Part shown: in pieces, positions 35,001 to 56,230 of the stretch | Numbering within the stretch: the stretch's first letter is position 1 | Layout: each line of letters opens with the position of its first letter | Source: an uncultured Alphaproteobacteria bacterium | GTDB taxonomy: Bacteria > Pseudomonadota > Alphaproteobacteria > HIMB59 | Assembly: GCA_902599045.1 (NCBI GenBank) | Contig: CACKEA010000001.1 | Location: 316,283-380,282 of the forward strand | DNA length: 64,000 nt | Reading direction: 5' to 3' | Made by a program: the position numbers and the translations under genes | Notes under the pieces: generated by a model | Database searches by the model: none | What the model was told of the DNA's origin: nothing | What the model saw: only the letters and a program-made list of their open reading frames with translations

Positions 35001-36206
35001 ATGAAACTAAATGTATATTATGGAAAAAGCGTTCATGGAAAAGATGAAATAGATGCAGTTGTTAAAGTACTTCAAAAATCAACTCAAATGGGTGAAAATG
35101 TAAAAAAATTTGAAAAAAAAATTAGTAATTTATTTGACAAGAAATATGGTGTTATGGTTAATTCTGGCTCTTCTGCCTTACTTCTGGCTTTTGAAGCTCT
35201 GAATTTACCAAAAAATTCTGAAGTTATAACTCCCGTATTGACGTTTTCAACAAGTGTTTCTTACATTATAAAAAATAATCTCAAACCTGTTTTTGTTGAT
35301 GTTAACAAACAAACATTATGTATAAGAGAAGATCAAATTCAAAAAGCACTTTCTAAAAAAACTGTTGCTATAGTAGTACCCAATTTATTAGGAAATTTAC
35401 CTAATTTATTAAAAATTAAAAAAATCATAAAAAGTTATAATAAGAAAATAATTATAATCGAAGACTCCGCTGATTGCTTAGGTTCAAAATTTAATGATAG
35501 GCCAAGTGGATACTATTCAGATATTAGTATCACAAGTTTTTATGGTTCACATATTATAAATTGTGCGGGAAATGGAGGTTATATAGGTCTCAATAGTAAA
35601 TATTTGTATAATAAGATTAAACTTTTAAGATCATGGGGGAGATCTTCTTCTCTTTTTGATGAAAGGTCTGAAAAAATAGAAAACAGATTTAATATTAAAT
35701 TAGATGGAATAAATTACGACAAAAAATTTGTATTTCAAGAAATTGGCCATAATTTAGAACCATCTGAATTAGGAGCAGCATTTGGTCTTGTACAACTTCA
35801 AAAATTAAAAGACAATTTGAATAAAAGAAAAAAAATTTTTCAGAAGCATTTAAATTTCTTTAGGAATTATACCAAACATTTCATTCTTCCTGTTGAGTAC
35901 AATAACACCAATACAGGTTGGTTAGCTTATCCTATATTAATAAATGATAATACCAAAATTGACAGAAAGGCTTTGCAGATTTTTTTAGAAAAAGCAAATA
36001 TACAAACCAGAGTAATTTTTACCGGGAATATATTAAGACAACCAGGTTTTAAAAATATTAATAAAAGAATAATAAAGAAAGAATATGATGAAGCTGATTA
36101 TGTAATGAAAAATGGAATTTTAATCGGCTGCCACCAAGGAATGACAAACCAAATGGTTGAATATGTTCATAATAGAATTAAAAAATTTATAAATAATTAT
36201 AAGTAA
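35001..36206 (+). CDS. RfbH/ColD-like PLP-dependent nucleotide-sugar 3-dehydratase
   Basis: 401 residues of the DegT family, but the Schiff-base lysine is replaced by His184 in SFYGSHIINCAGNGG. This is the mark of 3-dehydratases (RfbH/DdhC, ColD), which use PMP to remove the C3 hydroxyl of a 4-keto-6-deoxyhexose. RfbH-type segments KFVFQEIGHNLEPSELGAAFG, RVIFTGNILRQPGF and LIGCHQGMTNQMVEYV are present. The cysteines that hold the 2Fe-2S cluster in RfbH are absent after RSWGRSSS, so it should work as ColD does, with glutamate and no reductase. Substrate may be CDP- or GDP-linked. Confidence 0.88.
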   Translation: MKLNVYYGKSVHGKDEIDAVVKVLQKSTQMGENVKKFEKKISNLFDKKYGVMVNSGSSALLLAFEALNLPKNSEVITPVLTFSTSVSYIIKNNLKPVFVDVNKQTLCIREDQIQKALSKKTVAIVVPNLLGNLPNLLKIKKIIKSYNKKIIIIEDSADCLGSKFNDRPSGYYSDISITSFYGSHIINCAGNGGYIGLNSKYLYNKIKLLRSWGRSSSLFDERSEKIENRFNIKLDGINYDKKFVFQEIGHNLEPSELGAAFGLVQLQKLKDNLNKRKKIFQKHLNFFRNYTKHFILPVEYNNTNTGWLAYPILINDNTKIDRKALQIFLEKANIQTRVIFTGNILRQPGFKNINKRIIKKEYDEADYVMKNGILIGCHQGMTNQMVEYVHNRIKKFINNYK

Positions 36207-37973: not shown

Positions 37974-38519
37974 ATGAAGATATCTGCATACTCTGAGTTA
38001 ATTGAACTTTCACTTTCATCAATTGACAGAAAAAAATTTGACATACTCAAGAAATTAATTATTAAAACATATGATAAAAATAGTATCTATATTTGTGGTA
38101 ATGGGGGAAGCGCTGCTAATGCTAACCATATATGCAATGACTTAAGTCATTTGAGATCTAATAAATTTATAAAAGGTTTTTCAGCGTATTCTTTATCCGC
38201 AAATGATTCTTTGTTTAGTTGTTATGCTAATGACTATGGTTACAAATATTCTTTTTCAAAGCAATTAGAAAATCATGCTAAGAAAAATGATTTATTAATA
38301 GTTTTATCCTGTAGTGGAAATTCAGAAAATATATTAGAAGCATCAAAAGTTGCACTATCGTTAAAAATGAGAACTTTTGGAATTATAGGATCTAAAGACT
38401 CAAAAATTAAAAATATTTTAAAGAACATTATCTATACAAATATTCATGATGTTCAAGCTTCAGAGGATTTTCAAACAATAATTTTTCACATTTTGGCTAA
38501 ACAATTAAAAAATGAGTAA
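37974..38519 (+). CDS. gmhA: Sedoheptulose-7-phosphate isomerase (SIS domain)
   Basis: 181 residues, the usual GmhA size. It converts sedoheptulose 7-phosphate to D-glycero-D-manno-heptose 7-phosphate. The SIS-domain motifs ICGNGGSAANANHICNDL, LIVLSCSGNSENILEA and ASEDFQTIIFHIL (catalytic Glu and the region of the catalytic His) match GmhA. Partners are the HldE-like gene at 53285 and the nucleotidyltransferase at 54695. It overlaps the next gene by 8 bp. Confidence 0.9.
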   Translation: MKISAYSELIELSLSSIDRKKFDILKKLIIKTYDKNSIYICGNGGSAANANHICNDLSHLRSNKFIKGFSAYSLSANDSLFSCYANDYGYKYSFSKQLENHAKKNDLLIVLSCSGNSENILEASKVALSLKMRTFGIIGSKDSKIKNILKNIIYTNIHDVQASEDFQTIIFHILAKQLKNE

Positions 38520-39501
38520 ATTTTTAGTTATAGGTTCTAACTCATTTTCTGGGCAGTCTTTCATAAAATATATTTTAAAAAAAAAAGATGTAAAAAAAGT
38601 TTTTTGTGTAAGTAGATCATCTAATAAAAAATTCTCACCAGAAGAATTTAACAAATTTTCAAAAAAAGTTTTTTTTATAAAAATTGATATAAATAATGAA
38701 AAATCATCAAAATTAATTAAAGAATTAATTATAAAAAATAAAATTAGTTATATTATTAATTATGCTTCCCAGAGCATGGTTGGTGAGAGTTGGATTTACC
38801 CAATAGACTGGTATAGAACTAATGTAATCGGTACAATATCACTTGTAGAGGGGCTTAAGGGTGTTAATTGTATTAAAAAATTTATTCATTTTACTACCCC
38901 AGAAGTTTATGGTTCTCAGAATAAATTTCAGAAAGAGAGTTTTAACTTTAACCCAAGTACACCATATGCTGTTTCAAGAGCTTGCTCTGATTATCATTTA
39001 AAACTTCTAAACAAAGAATTTAGTTTTCCTGTTATTTTTACCAGAGCTTCAAACGTTTATGGAGAGTTTCAAGATTTTTATAGATTAATTCCAAAAGCTT
39101 TTATATTCGCAAAAAATAAAATGATATTTCCACTTCAAGGATCGGGTATTTCTAAAAGAAATTTTATCCATATAGATGATGTATCTGATGCTATTTATCA
39201 AATTTTCAAAAAAGGCAAAATTGGAGAAACCTATCACATTTCTTCAAAAAATATGCACTCAATAAAAAATATAGTTGAAAAAATCTATAAACTATATGAT
39301 TTAAATCCAAAGAACTATTTAGATATAAAAGAAGAAAGAGTGGGTAAGGATTTATTTTATAAACTTGACTCAAGTAAATTGAGAAAAAATATAAAATGGA
39401 GCCAAAAAATATCTCTTGAAGATGGATTAATAAGGTATAAAGATTGGTTCCAAAAAATTAAATTAAAAAAATTAAAAACAGATTATATTCATAAAAAATG
39501 A
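38512..39501 (+). CDS. RmlB-like nucleotide-sugar dehydratase/epimerase (SDR family)
   Basis: 329 residues. NAD-binding VIGSNSFSGQSF, then NYASQSMVGESWIYPIDWYRTN and TTPEVYGS, where the Glu is a dehydratase hallmark, suggesting a 4,6-dehydratase or related enzyme. The catalytic Tyr-x3-Lys is Tyr-x3-Arg here (PYAVSRAC). FIHIDDVSDAIYQIF and LEDGLIRYKDWF are typical C-terminal elements. It is co-transcribed with gmhA and the next SDR gene, overlapping each by 4-8 bp. Exact reaction unknown. Confidence 0.82.
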   Translation: MSKFLVIGSNSFSGQSFIKYILKKKDVKKVFCVSRSSNKKFSPEEFNKFSKKVFFIKIDINNEKSSKLIKELIIKNKISYIINYASQSMVGESWIYPIDWYRTNVIGTISLVEGLKGVNCIKKFIHFTTPEVYGSQNKFQKESFNFNPSTPYAVSRACSDYHLKLLNKEFSFPVIFTRASNVYGEFQDFYRLIPKAFIFAKNKMIFPLQGSGISKRNFIHIDDVSDAIYQIFKKGKIGETYHISSKNMHSIKNIVEKIYKLYDLNPKNYLDIKEERVGKDLFYKLDSSKLRKNIKWSQKISLEDGLIRYKDWFQKIKLKKLKTDYIHKK

Positions 39502-40454
39502 AAAAAAAAATAATTGTTACAGGTTGTTGTGGTTATGTTGGGACAGAGCTATGTAAATTACTGATTAAAAATGATTATGAAGTTCTGGGTATTGATACAT
39601 GTTGGTATGGAAACAGTTTAAAGGAAAATAATAATTTTAAGTTATTGAAATTAGATATTAGAAATATTGAAGATATCTCCTTTTTAGGTTACGAGGCCGT
39701 AGTTCACTTGGCCAATATAGCTAATGATCCAGCTGTAGAATTAAAACCTGACCTCTCTTGGGAAGTTAATGTCTTATCATCAAAATTGCTAATAGAAAAG
39801 TCAATAAAAGATAAAGTTTCTAAGTTTATTTATGCTAGTAGCGGTAGTGTTTATGGACTAAAAGATGAATTAAATGTTACTGAGGAACTAAGTTTGGTAC
39901 CTATTTCTGTTTACAACAAAACAAAGATGATTTCAGAAAGGGTTTTATTAAGCTACGTGGATAAGATAAATATCAATATTTTAAGACCAGCCACGGTTTG
40001 TGGTTACTCTGATAAAATGAGACTAGATTTAAGTGTGAATATGTTAACTTTTCAAGCACTTAAAAATAAAAAAATCAATGTATTTGGGGGATCTCAAATT
40101 AGACCGAATGTTCATATATTAGATATGATAAACGCATATTTGTTGTTCTTAAAAGAAGATGTAAGTGAAAATATATTCAATATTGGTTTTGAAAATATCA
40201 GTATATTAGATATTGCGAAAAAAATTAAGAGTAAGGTTGATACTGTTATTAATATCACTGACTCTAATGACCCTAGAAGCTATAGATTAAATTCAGATAA
40301 AATTATGTCTGTTGGATTTAAAAAAAATTATGACATAGATTTTGCAATAGATGAGTTAATCCAATCTTATAATGATGGAAAAATCAAAGAGTCTGACGAT
40401 TTATATGCAATTAAAAAATTAAGGAAATTAGTTGAAAATGGGAAAGTCTATTAA
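39498..40454 (+). CDS. NAD-dependent epimerase/dehydratase (SDR family)
   Basis: 318 residues. NAD-binding VTGCCGYVGTELCKLL, VVHLANIANDP, catalytic Ser/Thr in YASSGSVYG and Tyr-x3-Lys in VYNKTK, so the active site is complete. The family of such proteins, with NIANDPA after the fourth strand, is common in glycan clusters and includes 4-ketoreductases and 4-epimerases. It overlaps the preceding SDR gene by 4 bp and the next methyltransferase by 17 bp. Confidence 0.83.
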   Translation: MKKKIIVTGCCGYVGTELCKLLIKNDYEVLGIDTCWYGNSLKENNNFKLLKLDIRNIEDISFLGYEAVVHLANIANDPAVELKPDLSWEVNVLSSKLLIEKSIKDKVSKFIYASSGSVYGLKDELNVTEELSLVPISVYNKTKMISERVLLSYVDKININILRPATVCGYSDKMRLDLSVNMLTFQALKNKKINVFGGSQIRPNVHILDMINAYLLFLKEDVSENIFNIGFENISILDIAKKIKSKVDTVINITDSNDPRSYRLNSDKIMSVGFKKNYDIDFAIDELIQSYNDGKIKESDDLYAIKKLRKLVENGKVY

Positions 40455-41097
40455 TTTATTAGAAAACTATCCTCAAACAAAAAGAGATACTTCTGAAAGA
40501 GCAACATTAAAAAATGATAAAATTAGAAATATTGCTAGAAAGTTTGGTGAAGAATTTTTTGATGGAGATAGGGCCTATGGATATGGCGGCTTTCACTATA
40601 ACTCTAGATTTTGGGAACCCGTAGTCCCTACTTTTAGAGATTATTGGAATTTAGACTCAAACAATTCAATACTAGATATTGGATGTGCTAAAGGGTTTAT
40701 GATTTATGATTTTATTAATCAAATACCAGGTATCAAGATGAGAGGTATAGATATTTCTAAATATGCTATAAATAATTCAAAATCTGAAGTGAGTAATTTA
40801 TTGGCCGTGGGAGATGCAAAGACTCTTAATTTTGATGACAACTCTTTCGATTATGTTATTTCAATTAATACTATTCATAATTTAGATTATGACGATTGCC
40901 TACTATCACTGAGAGAAATTGAAAGAGTATCAAAAATAAGTTCTTTCATAACTGTTGATGCATACAATAATGAAGATGAAAAGAAAAGAATGTATGAATG
41001 GAACCTAACAGCAAAAACTATTATGTCCACTAAAGAATGGATTAATTTCTTCGATAAGGCAGGGTATACTGGAGATTATTATTGGTTTATTCCTTAA
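40438..41097 (+). CDS. Class I SAM-dependent methyltransferase
   Basis: 219 residues from ATG 40438; an in-frame TTG at 40432 is possible but MGKSINLLENYPQTKRD is the family-like start. FGEEFFDGDRAYGYGGFHYN is a distinctive segment that I associate with methyltransferases of sugar clusters, followed by SAM motif ILDIGCAKGFMIYDF, then DAKTLNFDDNSFDYVISINTIHNLDYDD. It probably methylates a nucleotide-bound sugar. It overlaps both neighbours and so is co-translated with the SDR and E1-alpha genes. Confidence 0.85.
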   Translation: MGKSINLLENYPQTKRDTSERATLKNDKIRNIARKFGEEFFDGDRAYGYGGFHYNSRFWEPVVPTFRDYWNLDSNNSILDIGCAKGFMIYDFINQIPGIKMRGIDISKYAINNSKSEVSNLLAVGDAKTLNFDDNSFDYVISINTIHNLDYDDCLLSLREIERVSKISSFITVDAYNNEDEKKRMYEWNLTAKTIMSTKEWINFFDKAGYTGDYYWFIP

Positions 41098-42044
41098 CAA
41101 ATCAAGATATTGAAAAAATATATAAAAAATTTATTGAGATAAGATTTTTAGAACTAGAGATTTCGAAAAGATACTCAGAGGGTAAGATGAGATGTCCCGT
41201 TCATTTGTCCGTCGGTCAAGAGATTGTACCTTCTATATTATCATTATTTGTTAAAAAAGCTGATAATTTTATAAGTACACATAGAGGACATGCTCATTAT
41301 ATAGCAAAAAACGGCAACATTCCTGAAATGATATCTGAAATTTATGGAAAAAAAACTGGTACTTCTGAAGGTAAAGGCGGTTCCATGCATTTGATTGATA
41401 CGAAAGTTAATTTTATGGGCACATCAGCTATCGTGGGAAATAGTATTCCAGTTGGGGTAGGTCTTGGATTATCAAATAAAATTAATAAAAAAAATTCTTT
41501 ATCATTTGTCTTTTTTGGTGATGGTGCTACTGAAGAGGGTGTTTTTTATGAGTCAATAAACTTTGCTGCGCTTAAAGAAATTCCTGTTGTGTTTATTTGT
41601 GAAAATAACAAATACTCAGTATATTCACCGCTAGATGTTAGACAGCCAAAAAATAGAAATATTCATAAAATACTAAATGGCATTGGAGTAAAATCATTTT
41701 TTTCTAAATCTAAGTCAGTTGAAGAAATATATTCAACTTTAGAACAAGCTATTAGATACAGCAGATCAAAAAGAAAACCTGTTTTTATTGAATGTATGAC
41801 AAGTAGATGGTTAGAACATTGCGGCCCAAATGAAGATAATGACTTAAACTATAGAGATATAAAAGAACTCGATGCTTATAAAAAAAACGACTTTCAAAAA
41901 AAACTAGAAAATAAACTTAAAATAACCTATATAAAAAAAACTCAAAAACAAATAATTAAAAAAATAAATTCTGCTTTTAAATTTGCTGACTTGTCATCTA
42001 CACCAAAAAAAGAAGATCTTAAAAAAAATGTGTTCAAAAATTAG
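41082..42044 (+). CDS. ThDP-dependent E1 alpha subunit (pyruvate/acetoin dehydrogenase-like)
   Basis: 320 residues. RGHAHYIAKNG, GTSEGKGGSMHL, then the ThDP motif FFGDGATEEGVFYESINFA to CENNKYS, all typical of E1 alpha subunits of 2-oxo acid dehydrogenases. No E2 (lipoyl) or E3 gene is nearby, so it and the beta subunit probably do not feed a dehydrogenase complex. In the middle of sugar-modifying genes they may transfer an activated aldehyde to a sugar. Start is TTG 41082, inside the methyltransferase gene. Confidence 0.88.
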   Translation: MVYSLTNQDIEKIYKKFIEIRFLELEISKRYSEGKMRCPVHLSVGQEIVPSILSLFVKKADNFISTHRGHAHYIAKNGNIPEMISEIYGKKTGTSEGKGGSMHLIDTKVNFMGTSAIVGNSIPVGVGLGLSNKINKKNSLSFVFFGDGATEEGVFYESINFAALKEIPVVFICENNKYSVYSPLDVRQPKNRNIHKILNGIGVKSFFSKSKSVEEIYSTLEQAIRYSRSKRKPVFIECMTSRWLEHCGPNEDNDLNYRDIKELDAYKKNDFQKKLENKLKITYIKKTQKQIIKKINSAFKFADLSSTPKKEDLKKNVFKN

Positions 42045-43098
42045 AAATATTACTTATATAAACGCAATAAATTCTGCACTTCATCAATCTATGGATAAAG
42101 ATAAAAAGGTAATTAGTTTTGGTTTAGGTATTAATGACCCAAAAAGAATATTTAATAGCACTAAGGGTTTAGTAGAAAAATTTGGAATTGAGAGAGTTTT
42201 TGATATTCCTACATCAGAAAACGCATTAATGGGAGTTTCTATAGGTCTTGCAATGAGTGGTATGAAACCTATTTATATGCATCAAAGACTAGATTTTTTT
42301 TTGTTAGCAATGGATCAGTTAATTAATGGGGCATCAAAGTGGCACTATATGTTTGGAGGTAAAGTAAACTTACCAATCACTGTAAGGCTTATAATAGGGA
42401 GGGGATGGGGTCAGGGCCCAACACATTCGCAAAATCTTCATGCTTGGTTTGCTCATGTACCAGGTTTAAAGGTTATAATGCCATCAAACCCATACGATGC
42501 TAAAGGGTTATTATTAAAATCTATTTTTGATCCTAATCCAGTAATTTTTTTAGAGCACAGATGGTTACATAATTCCATAGGAAAAGTTCCTGATAAATAT
42601 TATGAATTAGAAATTGGTAAAGCAAAAATTATAAATAAGGGTAATGATGTAACAATTATTGCTAGTTCTTATATGGTTGCTGATGCTATTAATTTTATAA
42701 AACATTTTGAAAAAATTAATTTAAAAATATCTATAGAATTAATCGATTTAAGATCCATAAAACCACTAGATAAAAATTGTATTTTAAAATCTGTAAAAAA
42801 AACAAAAAGAGTAATAGTTTTAGACCCTGGTTTTAGTTTCTGTGGTTTTGCATCAGAAATAATCTCAATTATCTCACTTAGCTTAATAAACGAACTAAAA
42901 TACAAGCCAATCAAAATTACAGTTCCTGATATTCCAGAACCAACTAGTAGATTTTTGGTTAAATACTATTACCCCTCTATTAATAACTTATATAGATCTG
43001 TTTGTAAGATGTTTAATCTAAAAACAAATAACAAAATAAATTTAGATCAAAATAGGCAGGTTGATGTGCCAGGAGACTGGTTTAAAGGCCCTTTTTAG
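42028..43098 (+). CDS. ThDP-dependent E1 beta subunit (transketolase C-type)
   Basis: 356 residues from ATG 42028, chosen because RNITYINAINSALHQSM is the normal E1 beta N terminus; the frame is open up to 41983. Motifs include FDIPTSENALMGVSIGLAMSG, GRGWGQGPTHSQNLHAWFAHVPGLKVIMPSNPYDAKGLL and LIDLRSIKPLD, matching E1 beta. The C-terminal 35 residues (ending VDVPGDWFKGPF) go beyond the usual end. It overlaps the alpha gene by 17 bp. Reaction inferred as two-carbon or acyl transfer in sugar synthesis. Confidence 0.87.
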   Translation: MCSKIRNITYINAINSALHQSMDKDKKVISFGLGINDPKRIFNSTKGLVEKFGIERVFDIPTSENALMGVSIGLAMSGMKPIYMHQRLDFFLLAMDQLINGASKWHYMFGGKVNLPITVRLIIGRGWGQGPTHSQNLHAWFAHVPGLKVIMPSNPYDAKGLLLKSIFDPNPVIFLEHRWLHNSIGKVPDKYYELEIGKAKIINKGNDVTIIASSYMVADAINFIKHFEKINLKISIELIDLRSIKPLDKNCILKSVKKTKRVIVLDPGFSFCGFASEIISIISLSLINELKYKPIKITVPDIPEPTSRFLVKYYYPSINNLYRSVCKMFNLKTNNKINLDQNRQVDVPGDWFKGPF

Positions 43099-43180: not shown

Positions 43181-44269
43181 ATGAATCAAAATACAGAATA
43201 TTTTCAAGTTAGACAAAAAAAAGCTCTAGAAAATTATGAAAATGATATCAAATATCCAAATAGATATGTTTTTGTATTAACAAATAAATGCAATTTAAGA
43301 TGTTCTTTCTGTTTTCAGGTTAAAGATAATTTGCCTGGAGCGTTTACTCTTGATGATTGGATATCTGTTTTAAACCAAATTCCTGAAAATTCTTGGATTA
43401 CTCTAACTGGAGGAGAACCAATAGTATTCAAAGGTTTTAATGATATTTTTCTCAAAGTTACTGAAAAGCATAGATGCAATATGATTTCAAATGGCATCAG
43501 ACTTTCAGAGGATATAATTGATATGTTAATTAGCAGAAATAATTTTAAAACTCTTTCTATTTCAGTTGATAATGTTGGAAATACTTTAAGAGATGTCAAA
43601 GCCCTTCAATGGGAACACGCTGAAAATATGATGCGTCTTTTTTCTAAGAAAAAACTAATTGCAGGAAGAACTGATTTAATCTTAGATACTAAAACTGTTG
43701 TTTTGGATGAAAATGCAAATGATTTATTCGATATACACAAGCACTGCATTGAGGACTTGAGTGCGGATACTCATTCATTTCAATTTTTAAAAGGCGCCCC
43801 AATTCAATTTTCAGATCATTTTTATCCTTTTGAAGATAGTAGAAAAAGTGTAAAGGCTTATAAGTATAAAAATTGGGATATAATTAAAGAGCAACTATAT
43901 AAAGTAAAAGAATACAATGTTAAAAATTCGGTTAGGGGTTTTTTACATCCTAAATTTGATGATTTATTAAACTTAGAACCTATAAATGATGACTCTTTAG
44001 ATAGGTTAAATTTAGAGGATCATGATCCAAGCTTATATAAAAAATGTATGGCTCCTTGGGAAAGTGTTCATATTAATAATGATGGTAATTTATTCCCATG
44101 CATGGCTATAAGTATGGGAAATCTAAAAGAAAACTCGCTTGATGAAATACTTAATGGAAGTATTTTTCAAAATTTTAGAGAAATGATTAGAGGTTGTGGC
44201 ACTGTAGAGGGATGCAATAGATGCGGTTATCTTAAGCCCAATGATCTTGAAAATTATAAAACACTCTAA
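43181..44269 (+). CDS. Radical SAM/SPASM-domain protein
   Basis: 362 residues. The radical SAM cluster motif CNLRCSFC (Cys37, Cys41, Cys44) is followed by ITLTGGEP and NMISNGIRL. The C-terminal SPASM region has CMAPWESVHINNDGNLFPCMA, GNLKENSLDEILNG and CGTVEGCNRCG, which bind auxiliary iron-sulfur clusters. Relatives modify peptides or carry out carbohydrate epimerisation and dehydration. Its neighbours are sugar enzymes, and no precursor peptide gene is seen, so a nucleotide sugar or glycan substrate is more likely. It has its own candidate promoter. Confidence 0.9.
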   Translation: MNQNTEYFQVRQKKALENYENDIKYPNRYVFVLTNKCNLRCSFCFQVKDNLPGAFTLDDWISVLNQIPENSWITLTGGEPIVFKGFNDIFLKVTEKHRCNMISNGIRLSEDIIDMLISRNNFKTLSISVDNVGNTLRDVKALQWEHAENMMRLFSKKKLIAGRTDLILDTKTVVLDENANDLFDIHKHCIEDLSADTHSFQFLKGAPIQFSDHFYPFEDSRKSVKAYKYKNWDIIKEQLYKVKEYNVKNSVRGFLHPKFDDLLNLEPINDDSLDRLNLEDHDPSLYKKCMAPWESVHINNDGNLFPCMAISMGNLKENSLDEILNGSIFQNFREMIRGCGTVEGCNRCGYLKPNDLENYKTL

Positions 44270-44271
44270 AA

Positions 44272-45057
44272 ATGTACATTCTTGGTGGTGGATTTATTGG
44301 AAAATCTATAAATGAGAGATTTAAAGACTCCGATTTAATTTCTATAAGAAAACTTCCAAAAAAAATTAAATTAAATAAATACAAAACTCTTGTAATTTGT
44401 TGTGGAATTTCAAGATTAGTCAAAAATGATAGTTCAATTCTTTATTCTGAAATCAAGAAAATAGACTGGATAATAAGTAATTTTAAAAAACATAATCTAA
44501 TTAAAGTAATTCTATTAAGTACAATTGATTTATATTCTAAAAATAAGCGACTTATAAATGAGGAAACACCCACTGAAATTAGCGATTATTACACACTCAC
44601 CCAGCTCTTATATGAAAAGTCTATGACTGATTTTTTTAAAAAAAAACTTATGATCTTAAGGCTCACAGGTGTATACGGAGCTTTGGATAACAAAAACAGT
44701 TCTATTTCAAAAATGATAAATCAGGCACTTTTTAGCGATACGATTTACTTATCAAACCATAAGATTCAAAGAGACTACATATATATTGATGACTTCTTAA
44801 ATATTTTTAAAAAAATTATAAATAAAAAATATTACGGGATACTTAACATAGGTAGCTTTGAGTCACAATCTATTTTGTCTTATGCTAAAATGGTTTCTAA
44901 AATAACTGGAAAAAAAATTATAAAAGAGCCGATTAGAAAGAATCTGAGGACTTACAATGTACAAATTGATAGTGAAAAATTAAATTCCTTGATAGGTTTT
45001 TATAATCATAATCATGAAAATAATATTAAAGAACTTATAAGAATTAGAAAATCATGA
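44272..45057 (+). CDS. Short SDR-type NAD-dependent epimerase/dehydratase-like protein
   Basis: 261 residues. NAD-binding ILGGGFIGKSI begins the protein; LLSTIDLYSKN is the catalytic Ser/Thr strand and DYYTLTQLLYEK the helix, where the catalytic Lys of Tyr-x3-Lys is Gln. MILRLTGVYG and RDYIYIDDFLNIF are typical later elements. The missing Lys suggests a changed or weak redox activity. It starts 2 bp after the radical SAM gene and overlaps the FkbM gene by 4 bp. Confidence 0.78.
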   Translation: MYILGGGFIGKSINERFKDSDLISIRKLPKKIKLNKYKTLVICCGISRLVKNDSSILYSEIKKIDWIISNFKKHNLIKVILLSTIDLYSKNKRLINEETPTEISDYYTLTQLLYEKSMTDFFKKKLMILRLTGVYGALDNKNSSISKMINQALFSDTIYLSNHKIQRDYIYIDDFLNIFKKIINKKYYGILNIGSFESQSILSYAKMVSKITGKKIIKEPIRKNLRTYNVQIDSEKLNSLIGFYNHNHENNIKELIRIRKS

Positions 45058-45899
45058 ATAACTTTTTTGAAGATATATTGTTATTACTGCCTAAAATAAC
45101 AAATCATCATATTTTTGGTAGTAGTATTTATCACTCACTTGATTTGGAAATTAAAAATTACATAAAAAAAATAAAAACAATTAATGGATATAAAAAAATT
45201 GAATTTTTTAATAAAAATATTAAATGGCCTGTAAGAAAATTTGGAAATGTAAGTAGTAATGATAGTTTTTCATTAAATCAAATGATCTATTATTCTTATT
45301 ACTACAAGCACAGAAATAATTATGAAATCGTTGCAGACTTTGGATCACATACTGGTGAAGATGCAATATTCATGAGTATGTGTGGATATAGAGTTTATGC
45401 TTATGAACCTGATAAAGTAAGTTTTAAATTATTAAAAAAAAATGTTGCTTTGAATAAATGTAAAAAAATTACTTTAATTAATAAGGCAATTTCAATTAAT
45501 CAAGAAAATTTAAAATTTATCAATGTCAAAGGAAATACTCTTGCAAACCATGTTTCTCATAGTAGAGAATTCTATGGGGACTATAGTATACAAAATGTTC
45601 AAGCAGAAGATTTCAATAAACTAAAGTTCAAACCTGATCTAATGAAAATTAATATTGAGGGATTTGAAAAAAAATTAATACCTATAATAAAAAAAACTTT
45701 TTGGAAAAATACAGACTCTTTTGTAGAACTACATGGTAAAGATTGCGCGGAAGTATTATTGAAATATTGCAAAATACTAAATCTAAATATTTACTCCCAA
45801 AAAATTGCATGGAATAAGGCAAAAAAAATTAAAGATTTGCCATTAAATTGGAGCGAGGGTTGTATATTTTTAACTAAAAAAAATAAAATGAAATGGTAA
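45054..45899 (+). CDS. FkbM-family methyltransferase
   Basis: 281 residues. SAM motif EIVADFGSHTGEDAIFMSMCG, VYAYEPDKVSFKLLKKNVALN and the FkbM hallmark LMKINIEGFEKKLIPII, which corresponds to the KIDVEGxE motif. FkbM enzymes O-methylate sugars, polyketides or other hydroxyls. It overlaps the SDR gene (4 bp) and the propeller gene (7 bp). Confidence 0.87.
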   Translation: MNNFFEDILLLLPKITNHHIFGSSIYHSLDLEIKNYIKKIKTINGYKKIEFFNKNIKWPVRKFGNVSSNDSFSLNQMIYYSYYYKHRNNYEIVADFGSHTGEDAIFMSMCGYRVYAYEPDKVSFKLLKKNVALNKCKKITLINKAISINQENLKFINVKGNTLANHVSHSREFYGDYSIQNVQAEDFNKLKFKPDLMKINIEGFEKKLIPIIKKTFWKNTDSFVELHGKDCAEVLLKYCKILNLNIYSQKIAWNKAKKIKDLPLNWSEGCIFLTKKNKMKW

Positions 45900-47305
45900 A
45901 AAGACGGATAAAATTTATTTTTTTTTTAATTGCTTCAATAATTGCCATCTATTTTGCATTGTCATTAAGTGTAAATAACAATAATCCTTTAATGCTGTAT
46001 ATTAAAGATTTTGTTCCTTCGGATATCAAAAACTACATTAAGTACAATTTTTTTAAATCTAGAGTTTTAATTGATGAAAATGATTTTTTAAAAAAAGAAA
46101 ATGAAAAATTAAATTCAAGAATTGTTGATTTAGAAAAAGTAAAAAATTTAACCAATAAAAAAATTTTCCCACAAACTCAATTTCTAAATTTAGATTATAG
46201 TGAAATCAATATTGATACTCTAGATTTTAGAAAAGGAAAAATTTTTGGAAAAATAAAATCTGAATTTTATATTGAAACAATTGATAATTACATATTGTTA
46301 ATTGGATCAGATGGTAAAATTTTCTATGCAAATTATAAAGATAATACCAACATAACCTTTAATTCAACTTTTCATAATATTGATTTTGAAATTGATGTTA
46401 CTGATTCTATGATTTATGAAAATAAACTCTATTTATCTTTTGCAAAAATTAATTCTGATTGTTCTTCAGATACTTTTTTTATATACAGGGCTGATTTAAA
46501 TTTAAATTCACTTCAATTTGAAGAATTTTTTTCACAAGAAACCCCGCTTGATATTGACAGTCAATATATTGATGATAATGAAAATTTAGACTGTCCTGAA
46601 GTCGGCGCTCGTGGCGGAAGAATGAGTATTTATAAACAAAATCAAAAAGATTATTTAATTTTATCTATACAAGATGAAAAGAACTCAAATAAAAATTATT
46701 TTTTACCTCCCAATAATAAAAATGATAATATTTTTAAAACATATAAATACTGTTTATTCATTCTTATTGATCTTGAGTCAAAAGAAAAAACTATTTTTTC
46801 AAGTGGTCATAGAAATCCAACCGGTTTATTAGTTACAAAAAATAACCATATTATATCCTCTGAGCATGGACCAAGGGGTGGTGACGAATTGAATTTAATT
46901 AAAATGGGAAAAAATTATGGTTGGCCAACAGTTTCTTACGGTGAACCTTATGAAAATGATATAAATCAACCTTATCATTATAAAAAAAATCATATTGAAT
47001 TAGGGTTTGAGGAACCAATTTTTTCTTTTATCCCTTCCATTGGCACATCTCAAATTATTGAATTAGATGATAGTTTTTCAGATAAATGGGAAGATAATCT
47101 CTTACTAGCTTCTCTAAAAGATGGTTCAATATATAGAATCGAAATCAATTACGATTTAAATAAATTAGTTTATTTTGAAAGAATTCATTTAGGAAAAAGA
47201 ATTAGAGACTTAACTTATAATAAAAAAAATAGAATTATCTTTTTGGCTTTAGAAGATAATGATGGGAAAATTGGGATAATAAAAACAGATGAAAACACCA
47301 ACTGA
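45893..47305 (+). CDS. Membrane-anchored PQQ-sugar-dehydrogenase-like beta-propeller protein
   Basis: 470 residues: one N-terminal membrane helix (about 6-26), a coiled-coil-like stretch (about 60-90), then a six-blade propeller domain. GHRNPTGLLV, SSEHGPRGGDELNLIKMGKNYGWP and YGEPYENDIN are the glucose/sorbosone dehydrogenase signature. The catalytic His normally in HxGGR is replaced: the segment reads GARGGRM (238-244), so it may bind sugar without oxidising it. It would face the periplasm. Overlaps both neighbours (7 and 17 bp). Confidence 0.83.
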   Translation: MVKRRIKFIFFLIASIIAIYFALSLSVNNNNPLMLYIKDFVPSDIKNYIKYNFFKSRVLIDENDFLKKENEKLNSRIVDLEKVKNLTNKKIFPQTQFLNLDYSEINIDTLDFRKGKIFGKIKSEFYIETIDNYILLIGSDGKIFYANYKDNTNITFNSTFHNIDFEIDVTDSMIYENKLYLSFAKINSDCSSDTFFIYRADLNLNSLQFEEFFSQETPLDIDSQYIDDNENLDCPEVGARGGRMSIYKQNQKDYLILSIQDEKNSNKNYFLPPNNKNDNIFKTYKYCLFILIDLESKEKTIFSSGHRNPTGLLVTKNNHIISSEHGPRGGDELNLIKMGKNYGWPTVSYGEPYENDINQPYHYKKNHIELGFEEPIFSFIPSIGTSQIIELDDSFSDKWEDNLLLASLKDGSIYRIEINYDLNKLVYFERIHLGKRIRDLTYNKKNRIIFLALEDNDGKIGIIKTDENTN

Positions 47306-48512
47306 AGAAAAATTATTCATAAAAGGAGGTCCAAAGCTAAGAAATAAGCCTATGCCTTTTAGAGAGCAATTTGGTAAAAAAGAATTAAATGCAGTTATAA
47401 ATGTTTTTAAAAAAAGCTGGAAAGATAAGAGAGACTTTTCATCAGAAGGTTTTTTTGAAAATAAATTCAATAAAGAATTCAGTAAATTTCATGGTGGTGG
47501 ATTTGTAGATACAGTAAATTCAGGAACTTCTGCTGTTTATATTGCATTAAAATCTTATGGAATAAAAAAAAAAGATGAGGTAATTATTTCACCTGTATGC
47601 AATCCCGGTGGAACTATGCCAATAGCTCTTGCGAGCTCTAACTTGGTTATTCCTGACTCTGCTAAAAATAGTTTTAATATTTGTCCAGAAAATTTTGCAA
47701 AATCAGTAAATAAAAATTCTAAATTTGCTGTAATTACCCACTTAGGTGGACATTCAGTCGAGATAGAAGAAATATCTAAAATATGTAAGAAAAATAAAAT
47801 TATATTAATTGAGGATTGTTCTCAAGCGCATGGCGCAAAATACAAGAATAAATATTTAGGAACTTTTGGAGATACCTCCACCTGGTCTACAATGTTTAGT
47901 AAAACGTTATCAACTGGAGGAACAGGCGGAGTAATTTTGACAAAAAAAAAAGATCAATATTGGAAAATAAGATCAATAGCTGATAGAGGAAAGCCATTTA
48001 ATAAAAAGAACTTTAATTTCAGAAATACTGACGAGTATTTATTCCCCTCATTAAATTACAATATTGATGAATTGAGTTGTGCGATTGGTAGCTCAATTCT
48101 TTCAAGATTAAAATACATCATAAAAAAAAGACAAGAACTTGCTACAAAATTAGATCAAAAATTAATTTCTTTAAATGGATTTTCGTCAACCAATTTGCAA
48201 ATTAAGAATTCTTACTCCTCAATTTTCTTTCATACCATAAAAATTAATTTAGAAAAATTCAAAACTTCAAAAGAAAAAATCGTCAAAGCTATTGAGTCGG
48301 AAGGTATCGAAATTAATGGTAATTACAAAGATATAGTATGTGAATGGAAATGGATAAATAAATATACAAAAAAAAAATATTACAGTGAAAATGCAATAAA
48401 TTTTAGAAATAATACATTTAATTTACTTTATAATGAAAAGTACACACTTCAAGATATTCAAGATATATTTAATGTTTTGAAAAAAGTTGAACATAACTTA
48501 ATTAAAAATTGA
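47289..48512 (+). CDS. DegT/DnrJ/EryC1-family sugar aminotransferase
   Basis: 407 residues. All PLP residues are normal: NSGTSAVYIAL (phosphate site), Asp176 in IEDCSQAHGAK and Schiff-base Lys205 in WSTMFSKTLSTGGTGG, so it is an aminotransferase, unlike the His-bearing homologue at 35001. It would put an amino group on a keto sugar nucleotide. The N-terminal LFIKGGPKLRNKPMPFR is typical of the subgroup that acts on cyclic ketones and 3-keto or 4-keto sugars. It overlaps the propeller gene by 17 bp. Confidence 0.88.
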   Translation: MKTPTEEKLFIKGGPKLRNKPMPFREQFGKKELNAVINVFKKSWKDKRDFSSEGFFENKFNKEFSKFHGGGFVDTVNSGTSAVYIALKSYGIKKKDEVIISPVCNPGGTMPIALASSNLVIPDSAKNSFNICPENFAKSVNKNSKFAVITHLGGHSVEIEEISKICKKNKIILIEDCSQAHGAKYKNKYLGTFGDTSTWSTMFSKTLSTGGTGGVILTKKKDQYWKIRSIADRGKPFNKKNFNFRNTDEYLFPSLNYNIDELSCAIGSSILSRLKYIIKKRQELATKLDQKLISLNGFSSTNLQIKNSYSSIFFHTIKINLEKFKTSKEKIVKAIESEGIEINGNYKDIVCEWKWINKYTKKKYYSENAINFRNNTFNLLYNEKYTLQDIQDIFNVLKKVEHNLIKN

Positions 48513-49606: not shown

Positions 49607-50611
49607 ATGAAATTAAATTCTTTTAAAGCAGCAGTTCTTTATAAAATTAACACTCCTTTAAAAATAATTGATTGTAAGTTTCCATCTTTAAAAAAAGGTC
49701 AAGTATTAGTTAAAAATTTATATTCAGGGATATGTCGAAGTCAGATTATGGAAATTGATGGGCTGAGAGGCATAGATAATTGGTTGCCACATTTATTAGG
49801 TCACGAAGGAGTAGGTGAAGTGATTCAAATTGGGAAAGGTGTTTCTAAAGTAAAAAAAGGAGATACGATTATATCTTCATGGATACAAGGAGAGGGTTTG
49901 GATGTAAATATCGATAATATTTACTCTACTTCAGGAGAAAAAATAAATAGTGGAAAAATAACTACCTTCAGTGAGTTTTCAATTATTTCTGAAAATAGAC
50001 TTTTTCGGAAACCTAAAAATATAAGTATTGAGATTGCCTCATTACTAGGTTGTGCTATTCCTACAGGATGTGGAAAAATATTTAATTTAAAAAAAAGAAT
50101 TCCATATGAAAGCAAAATTTTGGTATTTGGATTAGGCGGCATAGGCTTACTAACCTATTTGGCATTAAAAAGTTTTGGATATAAAAACCTCTATTTTAGA
50201 GAAATTAACAAAAATAAGATTAATTTAGTTCAAAAATATCTTGATGGTAAAAATGGAAATAATTTTGATAACTTTGATTTCATATTTGAGTCTGCAGGAT
50301 TAACCTCTACTATTGAAGAGTCGTTTTCACTCTTAAAGAAAGATGGAACTTTATATTTTTCTTCTCATCCAGATAGTTCTAGAAAAATTTCAATTAATCC
50401 ACATGAATTAATATCTGGAAAAAATATATATGGCGTATGGGGAGGCATGATGAATATGGATAAACAGTTAAATTCTTTAACTAATAAAATTTATAAAGAT
50501 TTAAATAATATAAAATCCCATATTTTAAATTATTATGAATTTAAAGATATAAATAAAGCGATATCTGATCTTAAAAATAATAAAGTTGTAAGACCTATTA
50601 TTAAATTTTAA
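49607..50611 (+). CDS. Zinc-type alcohol dehydrogenase-like (MDR) oxidoreductase
   Basis: 334 residues. SGICRSQIMEI supplies the catalytic zinc Cys, LLGHEGVGEV the GHE motif, and VFGLGGIGLLTYLAL the NAD(P)-binding fingerprint. The four-cysteine structural zinc lobe of classical alcohol dehydrogenases is missing. In glycan clusters such enzymes oxidise or reduce sugar or polyol hydroxyls. Its stop overlaps the convergent sulfotransferase gene by 4 bp. Confidence 0.87.
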   Translation: MKLNSFKAAVLYKINTPLKIIDCKFPSLKKGQVLVKNLYSGICRSQIMEIDGLRGIDNWLPHLLGHEGVGEVIQIGKGVSKVKKGDTIISSWIQGEGLDVNIDNIYSTSGEKINSGKITTFSEFSIISENRLFRKPKNISIEIASLLGCAIPTGCGKIFNLKKRIPYESKILVFGLGGIGLLTYLALKSFGYKNLYFREINKNKINLVQKYLDGKNGNNFDNFDFIFESAGLTSTIEESFSLLKKDGTLYFSSHPDSSRKISINPHELISGKNIYGVWGGMMNMDKQLNSLTNKIYKDLNNIKSHILNYYEFKDINKAISDLKNNKVVRPIIKF

Positions 50612-53284: not shown

Positions 53285-54691
53285 TTGAGAGTTTCTTTTA
53301 TATCAGGTGTATTTAACGTACTACATTTAGGCCATTTAAGTTTATTTAATTACGCTAAATCAATATCAGATAAATTAGTTATTGGAATAATAGATAAACC
53401 TGAAGAGGGTTTTGATAATTTAAATTCTTTGAAATACAGAAAACAACTTCTCAATGAATGTGAATATGTTGATGAAATAACAGTGATTAAAGATAACTTA
53501 TTAGAAAATTTATACCAAATAAAACCAGATCTGATTATTAAAGGAAAAGAATTTCAGAATAAATTTAATATTGAAGAGTCCTATGTAAAAGAAAATAATA
53601 TAAAAATTATTTTTTCTTCTGGTGCTGGCTCGATGCCAATTAATTTTGATAAAGTTGCAAATAATAATATTCAACTTGATAAAGATTATTTATTTAGAAA
53701 TAAATTAGATATAAAAAAAATAAAAAAAACTATTAATGATTTTGAAAAACTAAAAGTTTGTGTCATCGGGGAGACAATTATTGATGAGTATATCTATCAT
53801 GAAACAATGGGAGTGTCTCAAGAGGACTTTATTAGTGTTTTAAGACCCAGATATTCCAATAAATATCTTGGTGGGGCTTCCATTGTTGCAAGTAATTGTG
53901 CGAAGCTTGGAGCCAAGACAAGTTTTATTTCTATTGGGGGCAATAAAAATTATGAACAATATGTGCAAAATCAGTTAAAAAATTTAAAAATAAAAGCTAA
54001 ATTTTTTCAAGATGAAAATACTCATATTATCTATAAACAGAGATTTATGAATGAAGAACATACTGTATTTAGGGTAAATCACTTTAACCGTGACGAGATT
54101 TCTCTAAATACTCAAAATTTAATTTTAGATTATTTTGAAAAGAACTGCAGAGATTTTGATGCGCTAATTATCTCTGATTTTAACTATGGTTGTATACCAA
54201 AAAATTTATACCAAAATATATTAGATTTATGTAAGAACAAAAAAATAAAATTATTTACTGATAGTCAACTATCATCCCAAATTGGAGATATAACAAGATT
54301 TACCAATTCACATATCTCTTTTCAAACAGAATATGAAATAAGAACAACTCTTAAAAACAGCCATGATTCTCTTAATGAGATTTCATACAAATTTTTTAAA
54401 GCGGTAAATTCAAAAAATGTTTTATTAAAATTAAATTCAAACGGCATTTTGATAAATTCATTTTTTAGTCACAATTCTTCTTATACAGATACGATTAAAG
54501 CTTTTAATAAAAATCCAATACATACATCTGGTGCGGGAGACTCATTACTATCCACAACATCATTAGCATATACAATAACTGAGGATATAGCGCTATCATC
54601 ATTTATAGGATCACTTGCTGCTGCTCTTCAAATATCTGAAAAAGGATCAATCCTAATCTCTAGAGAAAATCTATTTGAATATTTAAATTAA
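53285..54691 (+). CDS. HldE-like bifunctional protein with reversed domain order (nucleotidyltransferase then PfkB kinase)
   Basis: 468 residues. The first 140 form a cytidylyltransferase-like domain: FISGVFNVLHLGHLSLFNYA (HxGH motif) and IIKGKEFQNKFN. From about 150 there is a ribokinase-type domain: VCVIGETIIDEYIYHE, YLGGASIVASNCAKLGAKTSFIS and the catalytic HTSGAGDSLLS. E. coli HldE, which makes ADP-heptose, has the kinase first; here the order is swapped. With gmhA at 37974 it probably serves heptose activation. Start is TTG 53285. Confidence 0.87.
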   Translation: MRVSFISGVFNVLHLGHLSLFNYAKSISDKLVIGIIDKPEEGFDNLNSLKYRKQLLNECEYVDEITVIKDNLLENLYQIKPDLIIKGKEFQNKFNIEESYVKENNIKIIFSSGAGSMPINFDKVANNNIQLDKDYLFRNKLDIKKIKKTINDFEKLKVCVIGETIIDEYIYHETMGVSQEDFISVLRPRYSNKYLGGASIVASNCAKLGAKTSFISIGGNKNYEQYVQNQLKNLKIKAKFFQDENTHIIYKQRFMNEEHTVFRVNHFNRDEISLNTQNLILDYFEKNCRDFDALIISDFNYGCIPKNLYQNILDLCKNKKIKLFTDSQLSSQIGDITRFTNSHISFQTEYEIRTTLKNSHDSLNEISYKFFKAVNSKNVLLKLNSNGILINSFFSHNSSYTDTIKAFNKNPIHTSGAGDSLLSTTSLAYTITEDIALSSFIGSLAAALQISEKGSILISRENLFEYLN

Positions 54692-54694
54692 TTT

Positions 54695-55399
54695 ATGAAG
54701 GCTATACTTTTAAGTGCAGGAAAAGGTTCCCGTTTAGGATTTGTTGGCAAAAAGATACCCAAAGCTCTGTTGAAGATTAAATCTAAAACAATTTTAGAAA
54801 TATGGATTGAAAAAATGATTACCGTTGGTGTAAGTGAAGTTATTATCAATACTCATCATCTAAAAGAAAAAATTGAAAAGTATTTAGATAAAAAAAAATT
54901 TCCTATAAAAATTACTTTAGCTAATGAGCCAAATTTACTAGGAACAGGAGGTACCTTAAAAAAGAATTTAAATTTGATAAAAAATAATACTACTTTTTTA
55001 ATTCACACCGATAATTTTAACTTAGAAAATTTAAAAAATTTTTTGAATTTTCATAAGTTAAGAACAAAAAAATTTTTATTTTCAATGATGCTTTTTTATA
55101 CAGATCGACCTAAAACATGCGGAATTGCAAGTATTGATAAAGAAGGCAAGCTAGTGTCATTTATTGAGAAACCAAAGAAACCTCAGTCTAATCTTGCAAA
55201 TACTGCAATATATATTTTGAGTCCTAAATTTATAAATGAATTTGAAAAAAAATTTAAACATAAAAAATATATTGATTTTAGCAATGACGTAATACCCTTA
55301 TATATAAAAAAAATTAAGTGCTATGTATCAAAAAAAAATAATATAGATATAGGCTCCATTTATGGATTGAAGAAAGCAAGAAATATTTCAAAAAATTAA
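54695..55399 (+). CDS. Sugar-1-phosphate nucleotidyltransferase, HddC-like
   Basis: 234 residues, a stand-alone nucleotidyltransferase. LLSAGKGSRLGFVGKKIPKALLKI is the signature, with LLGTGGTLKKN, IHTDNF (metal site), FIEKPKKPQSN and IDIGSIYGLKKA at the end. The size and order match HddC/RmlA-short enzymes that make GDP-D-glycero-D-manno-heptose or related NDP sugars. It is 3 bp after the HldE-like gene, so a heptose role fits. Confidence 0.84.
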   Translation: MKAILLSAGKGSRLGFVGKKIPKALLKIKSKTILEIWIEKMITVGVSEVIINTHHLKEKIEKYLDKKKFPIKITLANEPNLLGTGGTLKKNLNLIKNNTTFLIHTDNFNLENLKNFLNFHKLRTKKFLFSMMLFYTDRPKTCGIASIDKEGKLVSFIEKPKKPQSNLANTAIYILSPKFINEFEKKFKHKKYIDFSNDVIPLYIKKIKCYVSKKNNIDIGSIYGLKKARNISKN

Positions 55400-55438: not shown

Positions 55439-56230
55439 ATGCTAAAAATTAAAGATATCCCGTGTGTTATACTTGCAGGTGGTTTTGGAACTAGATTATC
55501 TGAGGAAACTATAAACAAACCCAAACCTCTTGTAGAAATAGGTCAATTTCCAATAATTTGGCATATAATGAAATTGTATTCATACTATGGTGTAAGGAAA
55601 TTTATTATTAGTTGTGGTTATAAATCTAATTTAGTAAAAGATTTTTTTGTAAATTATCAAAATTATTCGAATGATATCTTGATTGATTTACAAAACAATT
55701 CAAAAAAAATAATTTCAAAAAAAAGTGAAGAATGGGAAATTATTTTATCTGACACAGGTTTAAGTACCAATACAGGAGGTAGAATTCTAAATATTAAAAA
55801 ATATTTAAAAAAAAATGAAATATTTTTTTGTACCTATGGTGATGGAGTTTCTAATATTAATCTTAAAAAATTACTTAATACTCATCTAAAACATAATAAA
55901 ATAGCTACTCTAAGTGCTGTTAAACCTTATGGTAGATTTGGTGAATTAAAAATTGAAAATAGTTTAGTAAAAATTTTTAAGGAGAAGATAAATATCAAGC
56001 CAACATATATTAATGGCGGATTTTTTGTTTTCTCTAAAAAAATATTTAATTTTATAAAAAATAAAAATAGTTCTTTAGAGGAGCAAACATTAACTGAATT
56101 ATCAAGAAATAAACAGTTAGCTGCTTTCAAACATAATGGATTTTGGTCCGCAATGGATAACGTTAGAGATATGAGATATTTGAATGAATTATGGAATGAT
56201 AATAAAGCTGAATGGAAGATCTGGGATTAG
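55439..56230 (+). CDS. rfbF: Glucose-1-phosphate cytidylyltransferase
   Basis: 263 residues, the size of RfbF/DdhA. It forms CDP-glucose, the start of all CDP-3,6-dideoxyhexoses. Signature VILAGGFGTRLSEETINKPKPLVEIGQFPIIWHIMKLYS is nearly as in Salmonella; FISCGYKSNLVKDFF, ILSDTGLSTNTGGRI, YGDGVSNI and NGGFFVF follow in order. It overlaps the next gene by 19 bp. The other pathway genes are rfbG next door and the RfbH/RfbJ-like pair at 35-37 kb. Confidence 0.94.
   Translation: MLKIKDIPCVILAGGFGTRLSEETINKPKPLVEIGQFPIIWHIMKLYSYYGVRKFIISCGYKSNLVKDFFVNYQNYSNDILIDLQNNSKKIISKKSEEWEIILSDTGLSTNTGGRILNIKKYLKKNEIFFCTYGDGVSNINLKKLLNTHLKHNKIATLSAVKPYGRFGELKIENSLVKIFKEKINIKPTYINGGFFVFSKKIFNFIKNKNSSLEEQTLTELSRNKQLAAFKHNGFWSAMDNVRDMRYLNELWNDNKAEWKIWD

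Follow-up and report, generated by a model that had tools for sequence, protein, structure and literature searches.

An orphan E1-type thiamine enzyme, likely a sugar-branching carboligase, encoded in a recurring glycan gene cassette of an uncultured alphaproteobacterium

Enzymes of the E1 type that attach a two-carbon (C2) branch to sugars are in print for actinomycete antibiotics (PMC12247030, PMC4425429, PMC4802897); one review names the class alphaKADH2 (PMC12247030). AviB1/AviB2 of avilamycin and Pau11/Pau12 of paulomycin are E1-type pairs described as adding, or proposed to add, a pyruvate-derived C2 sugar branch (PMC4425429), Plm8/Plm9 of paulomycin are described with 2,6-dideoxy and 2,3,6-trideoxy sugars as acceptors (PMC4802897), and for EvdU5/EvdS3 of everninomicin C2 branching is put forward as a hypothesis (PMC10338323). 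According to the review, enzymes of the class use pyruvate together with ketone acceptors, with KbDH of kibdelomycin shown in vitro, and AcoA/AcoB (acetoin:dichlorophenolindophenol oxidoreductase), a related E1 pair, is credited with acetyl ligation to activated ketones in vitro (PMC12247030). A 2016 paper sets the antibiotic E1-type pairs against YerE, a single flavoprotein responsible for the branch of yersiniose, a Gram-negative sugar (PMC4753412). Here we describe an E1 alpha/beta gene pair at positions 41082 to 43098 of a 64,000-nucleotide stretch (the window, meaning this whole stretch) from an uncultured Alphaproteobacteria bacterium of the HIMB59 lineage (assembly GCA_902599045.1, contig CACKEA010000001.1, positions 316,283 to 380,282), which lies within a sugar-gene island and consists of:

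41082..42044, + strand: E1 alpha, orphan, binding thiamine diphosphate (ThDP); 320 amino acids with a TTG start; Pfam E1_dh 174 bits, family-invariant residues.
42028..43098, + strand: E1 beta; 356 amino acids from an ATG; Pfam Transket_pyr 102 and Transketolase_C 95 bits, conservation.

For E1 beta the ATG at 42028 was used; the list of open reading frames (ORFs) begins it at TTG 41983. Both subunits are complete and, by Pfam and alignment, retain the ThDP motif and the catalytic histidines of pyruvate dehydrogenase (PDH). E1 alpha shows the motifs KMRCPxHLSxGQE, GDG..NN and EHCGPNxD, and E1 beta shows HxRxDF, GRGWGQGxTHSQ and a C-terminal GPF tail. Neither curated cut-offs nor linked E2/E3 genes place the pair in PDH E1: both subunits fall short of the NCBIfam PDH cut-offs (242 vs 393.85 bits for alpha and 285 vs 321 bits for beta). 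The domains E1_dh, Transket_pyr and Transketolase_C also set it apart from a single chain of the YerE type (TPP_enzyme_N, M and C), of which the sole match in the pair is TPP_enzyme_C with 26 bits. Between 37974 and 43098, six ORFs, encoding a SIS-domain protein, two short-chain dehydrogenase/reductases (SDRs; DH46 and SDRb), a methyltransferase (MT), E1 alpha and E1 beta, overlap head to tail, which suggests a single operon. ORFs, Pfam and blastp thus bear out the original prediction of a complete E1 pair overlapping sugar genes with no E2/E3 nearby. The best explanation, with a probability of about 0.6, is an orphan thiamine enzyme of the E1 type, likely a carboligase of the alphaKADH2 type, predicted to decarboxylate pyruvate and pass the resulting C2 unit to a ketone group on a nucleotide-activated sugar. 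The role in C2 branching that had been proposed is plausible, as it fits the gene context and the relatives of the pair. The accompanying idea that such sugar C-C ligases would be a new class is not supported, since E1-type branching by alphaKADH2 enzymes is already described in three papers (PMC12247030, PMC4425429, PMC4802897).

The residues that distinguish the pair from PDH are nearly invariant in its relatives. Conservation was determined in 79 alpha sequences (78 loci and the window) and 74 beta sequences (73 loci and the window), with beta residues numbered from TTG 41983 (subtracting 15 gives the ATG-based numbering). ThDP-binding and catalytic positions are preserved throughout both sets. 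Alpha residues unlike those of the cell's own PDH include R37, P39, H67, D106, E151, C173 and G248, present in 79/79 each, E245 and C247, present in 78/79 each, and C38, present in 75/79; these altered residues fall in the loop that presumably bears the PDH phosphorylation site. Beta residues unlike own PDH include R102, G141, W142, G143, Q144, R193 and W194, present in 74/74 each, R102 standing three residues ahead of what we take to be a PDH active-site Phe, and the C-terminal G369, P370 and F371 are present in 69/74 each. Active-site motifs of the family's own are EHCGPNxD in alpha and, in beta, GRGWGQGxxHSQ together with an invariant Arg; beta also ends in a GPF tail.

The pair travels with a recurring set of sugar genes. 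Counts in the following rows refer first to the 78 loci in which an E1 alpha ORF is present, with homologues of the window genes assigned by best blastp, and then to the 40 loci that span 20 kb or more:

37974..38519, + strand: SIS-domain, GmhA-like isomerase (SIS); TIGR00441 103.9 bits, below the cut-off of 209; 32/78 and 23/40.
38512..39501, + strand: dTDP-glucose 4,6-dehydratase-like SDR (DH46), with TPE replacing the RmlB TDE triad; 56/78 and 31/40.
39498..40454, + strand: epimerase/reductase-type SDR (SDRb); 60/78 and 32/40.
40432..41097, + strand: class I S-adenosylmethionine (SAM) methyltransferase (MT); 55/78 and 29/40, directly upstream of E1 alpha in 41 of the 75 loci where an ORF precedes it.
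49607..50611, + strand: Zn-dependent alcohol dehydrogenase (ADH), candidate reductase of the acetyl branch; 38/78 and 24/40.
53285..54691, + strand: HldE-like fusion, nucleotidyltransferase then kinase; the genome's best rfaE_dom_I match, below cut-off; 46/78 and 30/40.
54695..55399, + strand: sugar-1-phosphate nucleotidyltransferase (NT), with HddC among several matches, all below cut-off; 22/78 and 15/40.

Taking SDRb, DH46, MT, HldE-like fusion, ADH and SIS together, at least one is present in 78/78 loci, at least three in 57/78 and all six in 12. Under looser clustering SIS is found in 43/83 records including the window. The pair is thus linked to genes for nucleoside diphosphate (NDP)-keto sugars, DH46 and SDRb in the relatives and RfbF and RfbG in the window, given the reaction predicted for DH46. 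The HldE-like fusion has the nucleotidyltransferase first and the kinase second in 43/48 cluster members, which we take to be the reverse of the order in E. coli HldE, and DH46 carries TPE in 47/55 members, at the position of what is presumably the reference TDE motif of RmlB. In 162 genomes of the window's order, E1 is present in 14, DH46 in 9 and both in 7 (p=2e-7), and MT is present in 25, of which 12 also have E1 (p=9e-10; Fisher tests, both uncorrected for relatedness).

The database search found 7990 of 7999 scored candidates homologous at E<=1e-3, with EHCG in all of the best 120 listed homologues (120/120), and beta follows alpha directly in 73/78 loci; together, the homologues and this arrangement exclude a chance origin. 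Of 536 places confirmed in a genome scan the best 80 were retained, and these belong to Pseudomonadota, Cyanobacteriota, Campylobacterota, Bacteroidota, Chloroflexota, Bdellovibrionota, Verrucomicrobiota and further bacterial phyla as well as to two archaeal lineages; since many source genomes are metagenome-assembled or single-cell genomes, binning errors may account for some of these placements. The pair is an accessory trait, present in 6/52 genomes of the window's family and 14/162 of its order (window genome counted; E<=1e-60), and appears to have spread horizontally. A phage origin was considered and is not supported, as the E1 matches listed by the phage search were all distant, the best 31% identical. 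Plasmid searches yielded annotated relatives; three of the stretches (L157-L159) have no annotated features. In 396 genomes of the phylum around locus L036, a pattern scan showed no alpha motif in the loci of most places, and L121 and L122 carry it.

Similarity to the alphaKADH2 enzymes lies in split E1 alpha and beta genes amid keto-sugar genes; the named enzymes are known here by their published description. They differ in setting: an antibiotic cluster there, and here a Gram-negative polysaccharide-type island with GmhA-like and reversed HldE-like partners. As a stand-in, 394 genomes from the family of G135 (9.7 Mb), taken as actinomycete (Streptomyces-like) by identity to Streptomyces plasmid proteins, were searched. 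Seven listed places (L190-L196) are 62-75% identical to the pair of a Streptomyces griseofuscus plasmid (L008), to which the window pair is 35% (alpha) and 39% (beta) identical, and all seven were compared together with 13 of the weaker listed ones. All seven actinomycete-like pairs show [EA]HVGP and G[RH]GWGQG, and four lie near deoxysugar genes: RfbA and RfbB pass their cut-offs in L190, as do an NDP-hexose 2,3-dehydratase and an RfbH in L191 and an activator-dependent glycosyltransferase in L193, and L192 has an RfbH-like blast match. These common loop motifs and deoxysugar neighbours tie the family to the published alphaKADH2 carboligases. In the plasmid, the E1 pair with the family motifs (L008:19998-22044) has polyketide genes and a gene for a condensation-domain protein as neighbours. 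The 13 weaker places (L197-L209) form a separate E1 family of the same actinomycete-like genomes with loops of the RFEGHHTMERR type, in which neither the alpha motif nor the beta pattern was found, and the query set used detected no E2/E3 or sugar gene within about 9 kb of them.

A second tree was built from 126 alpha rows and rooted on the cell's own PDH. Of the family ORFs, 78/79 were used, the row L087 being in neither tree; the control rows L132 and L137 were left out of this second tree, L094, L129 and L139 were re-extracted by tblastn, and L093, L095 and L098 were added. In this tree 88 family rows and the control L125 form one group (82 in the Shimodaira-Hasegawa-like approximate likelihood ratio test, SH-aLRT). 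Nine Streptomyces-type rows form one clade (100) that is basal to the family under the PDH root; without a root they sit between the polysaccharide branch and the controls, or split off with the controls. The one-group arrangement therefore depends on PDH rooting, and kinship of the family with the Streptomyces-type pairs, judged from these sequences, is supported though not proven.

Whether the pair serves as an E1 of the ordinary kind was judged from the rest of the genome (1.37 Mb, 94.8% complete). Contig 8 contains a complete PDH operon, eno-pdhA-pdhB-E2-E3-lipA (names by homology and by eye), so the pair was rejected as a substitute for the cell's PDH. A genome-wide family search shows just two 2-oxoacid_dh (E2) genes, one adjoining the E1 of 2-oxoglutarate dehydrogenase (OGDH) and one in the PDH operon. 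With own PDH E2, own PDH E3 and OGDH-linked proteins as blastp queries, no E2/E3 homologue was found at E<=1e-5 in the ORFs of 82 related loci or in the window ORFs from 28 kb on. The original prediction was to fall if lipoyl E2/E3 genes were linked in relatives, and these 82 loci gave zero matches, or if normal PDH genes were missing elsewhere, and the same genome carries them. An unlinked E2 partner may lie elsewhere, the genome being incomplete and some related loci short. That the pair is a spare or divergent pyruvate or acetoin dehydrogenase E1 feeding the cell's PDH E2 is highly improbable. It does have its E1 family, ThDP motif and catalytic histidines in common with PdhA/PdhB; by sequence, E1 chains of PDH and of 2-oxo acid dehydrogenases are its best matches among solved structures, and an E2 exists elsewhere in the genome. 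However, the pair differs from PdhA/PdhB in having no E2/E3 found with it, in scores below both PDH cut-offs and in replaced loop and pocket residues, among them the loop presumed to carry the PDH phosphorylation site; moreover, the pair is present in only 6/52 genomes of the window's family, and every one of the 78 loci has at least one of the six cassette homologues. AcoA/AcoB are likewise a related E1 pair, but the genome's own Aco-like pair (L002, C4:146444-150337; assigned by eye) lacks EHCGP and GRGWGQG. This second E1 pair directly follows an M24-type gene (creatinase- or DddP-like by eye), and the E2 genes found in its genome by family search are the PDH and OGDH ones only.

The nature of the acceptor separates the remaining explanations. 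An acceptor of the cytidine diphosphate (CDP)-3,6-dideoxy-4-keto type had been predicted, and the window contains candidate genes for this possible alternative route:

55439..56230, + strand: RfbF, glucose-1-phosphate cytidylyltransferase; 326.7 bits, cut-off 300.25.
56212..57285, + strand: RfbG, CDP-glucose 4,6-dehydratase; 339.3 bits, cut-off 278.45.
35001..36206, + strand: RfbH-like DegT-family protein, a possible 3-dehydratase, with His for the pyridoxal phosphate (PLP) lysine; 298.8 bits, cut-off 423.

RfbF and RfbG pass their cut-offs, and the RfbH-like protein falls short of its own. If the pair branched the CDP-3,6-dideoxy-4-keto-glucose made by these three enzymes, a yersiniose-like sugar would result; in favour of this, the window has an RfbH-like protein with the His substitution, and the actinomycete-like L191 has RfbH over cut-off beside its pair. 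This is nevertheless unlikely. RfbF is present in 5/78 loci and RfbG in 4/78 (4 each among the 40 longer loci, those of 20 kb or more). An RfbH-like motif of the His type was found in three loci (L013, L070, L075) and the window, so rfbFGH-like genes are not the usual neighbours of the pair, and the E1 operon carries a different dehydratase-like SDR, DH46, instead. The RfbFGH product was rejected as the usual acceptor on account of this rarity; an acceptor made by RfbFGH is possible in this one island. A further explanation places the pair at an earlier step, where, as a ligase resembling DXS or transketolase, it would supply a sugar phosphate to the GmhA-like isomerase and the HldE-like kinase. 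Linkage to an isomerase and a sugar kinase and a weak alignment of E1 beta with DXS and transketolase speak for it, and yet it is very unlikely: on chemical reasoning a 1-deoxyketose is not isomerisable to an aldose by a GmhA-type enzyme, no HldE-like match was found near the actinomycete-like pairs (SIS was not among the queries), and three of those pairs have NDP-deoxysugar genes over cut-off. The recurring partners of the pair, the GmhA-like isomerase and the reversed HldE-like fusion among them, suggest a heptose-derived acceptor, and the SIS gene is the genome's best gmhA match, with one other, weak match (31.5 bits). A heptose precursor would be the most natural reading of the cassette, yet it is a guess, because the GmhA-like, HldE-like and NT scores lie far below curated cut-offs, even if the first two are still the genome's best GmhA-like and HldE-kinase matches.

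Several observations weigh against sugar branching by an alphaKADH2-type enzyme, besides the low scores just given. No activity was seen in print for any member of the polysaccharide-linked branch, and AviB1/B2, Pau11/12 and KbDH are known by description alone and are not among the tree rows. No sugar gene was found near L194-L196 with the query set used, and no sugar genes are annotated in the stretch of L008. The alpha motif is absent from L010 and L086; the family by itself is not one side of a branch, as L125, without the motif, falls inside it, and L121 carries EHCGP yet falls among the controls. The starred branches force at least two changes, the shuffled mean being 32, with 0/500 shuffles as low. 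With TPE in place of TDE, DH46 may not be a 4,6-dehydratase, and its reaction is possibly different. As for co-occurrence, E1 is missing from G481 and G553 although both carry DH46 and MT; among the MT matches, several are weak (27-37% identity) and some are on contigs other than that of E1, and many of the 162 order genomes entering the Fisher tests are incomplete.

In the mechanism proposed for the pair as a sugar-branching carboligase, pyruvate, the presumed donor, would be decarboxylated on ThDP. The acceptor would be built by the GmhA-like isomerase, the HldE-like kinase/nucleotidyltransferase and the 4,6-dehydratase-like SDR, and hence would probably be a keto-heptose. The hydroxyethyl carbanion would attack the ketone of the NDP-keto sugar to give an acetyl-branched tertiary alcohol, the Zn-ADH or an SDR may act as reductase on the new acetyl branch, the adjacent MT may methylate the product, and the finished sugar would be transferred into a surface glycan. 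The predicted transfer of a C2 unit from pyruvate to a keto sugar, encoded in a lipopolysaccharide-type locus, resembles the chemistry of YerE, which differs as a single thiamine pyrophosphate (TPP)-dependent flavoprotein of the decarboxylase superfamily (PMC4753412, PMC12247030) from the E1-type two-gene enzyme described here. A three-domain TPP enzyme (cluster c10, e.g. L076:16289-18112; one member scanned) is encoded in 18 of the related E1 loci and is not in the window's clusters. Split transketolase clusters c19 and c20 are present in 9 and 8 E1 loci (e.g. L037, L053), and the glycan islands of some E1 loci contain up to three kinds of thiamine enzymes together. A family of HAD-type phosphatases in 10 related loci could serve as GmhB (one member scanned).

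The enzyme class is known; what looks new is to find its E1-type branch within a broadly distributed glycan cassette of Gram-negatives and some archaea. Searching the literature for O-antigen or polysaccharide loci with E1 pairs gave no earlier description among the papers listed, which does not establish their absence from print, and a paper on Pelagibacterales O-chains (PMC11898729) has no mention of the E1-pair terms looked for. Tentatively, a horizontally spread cassette of isomerase, reversed HldE-like fusion, TPE-type dehydratase, SDR, MT, E1 alpha/beta and Zn-dehydrogenase might build an undescribed acetyl- or hydroxyethyl-branched surface-glycan heptose in SAR11, cyanobacteria, Campylobacterota, Alteromonadaceae and small-genome archaea. 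If so, E1-type sugar ligation would be a general glycan strategy and not an antibiotic curiosity. A glycan-linked E1 family in many phyla would move sugar branching into ordinary cell-surface biology, branched sugars, probably heptose-derived, would be predicted in ocean bacteria, and many candidate carboligases for chiral tertiary alcohols would become available.

The island also contains the following features downstream of E1 beta:

43181..44269, + strand: radical SAM/SPASM protein, 82 bases past E1 beta; homologue in 3/78 loci (2 of the 40 that span 20 kb or more).
44272..45057, + strand: SDR-type protein.
45054..45899, + strand: FkbM-family methyltransferase; TIGR01444 62 bits, cut-off 37.7.
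47289..48512, + strand: DegT/DnrJ aminotransferase, PLP lysine present.

Within the same gene run, 45893-47305 encodes a protein with a glucose/sorbosone-dehydrogenase domain, which has no relative in the 78 E1 loci, and at 60692-61846 a CofD/YvcK-like protein (by eye) is encoded inside the sugar island.

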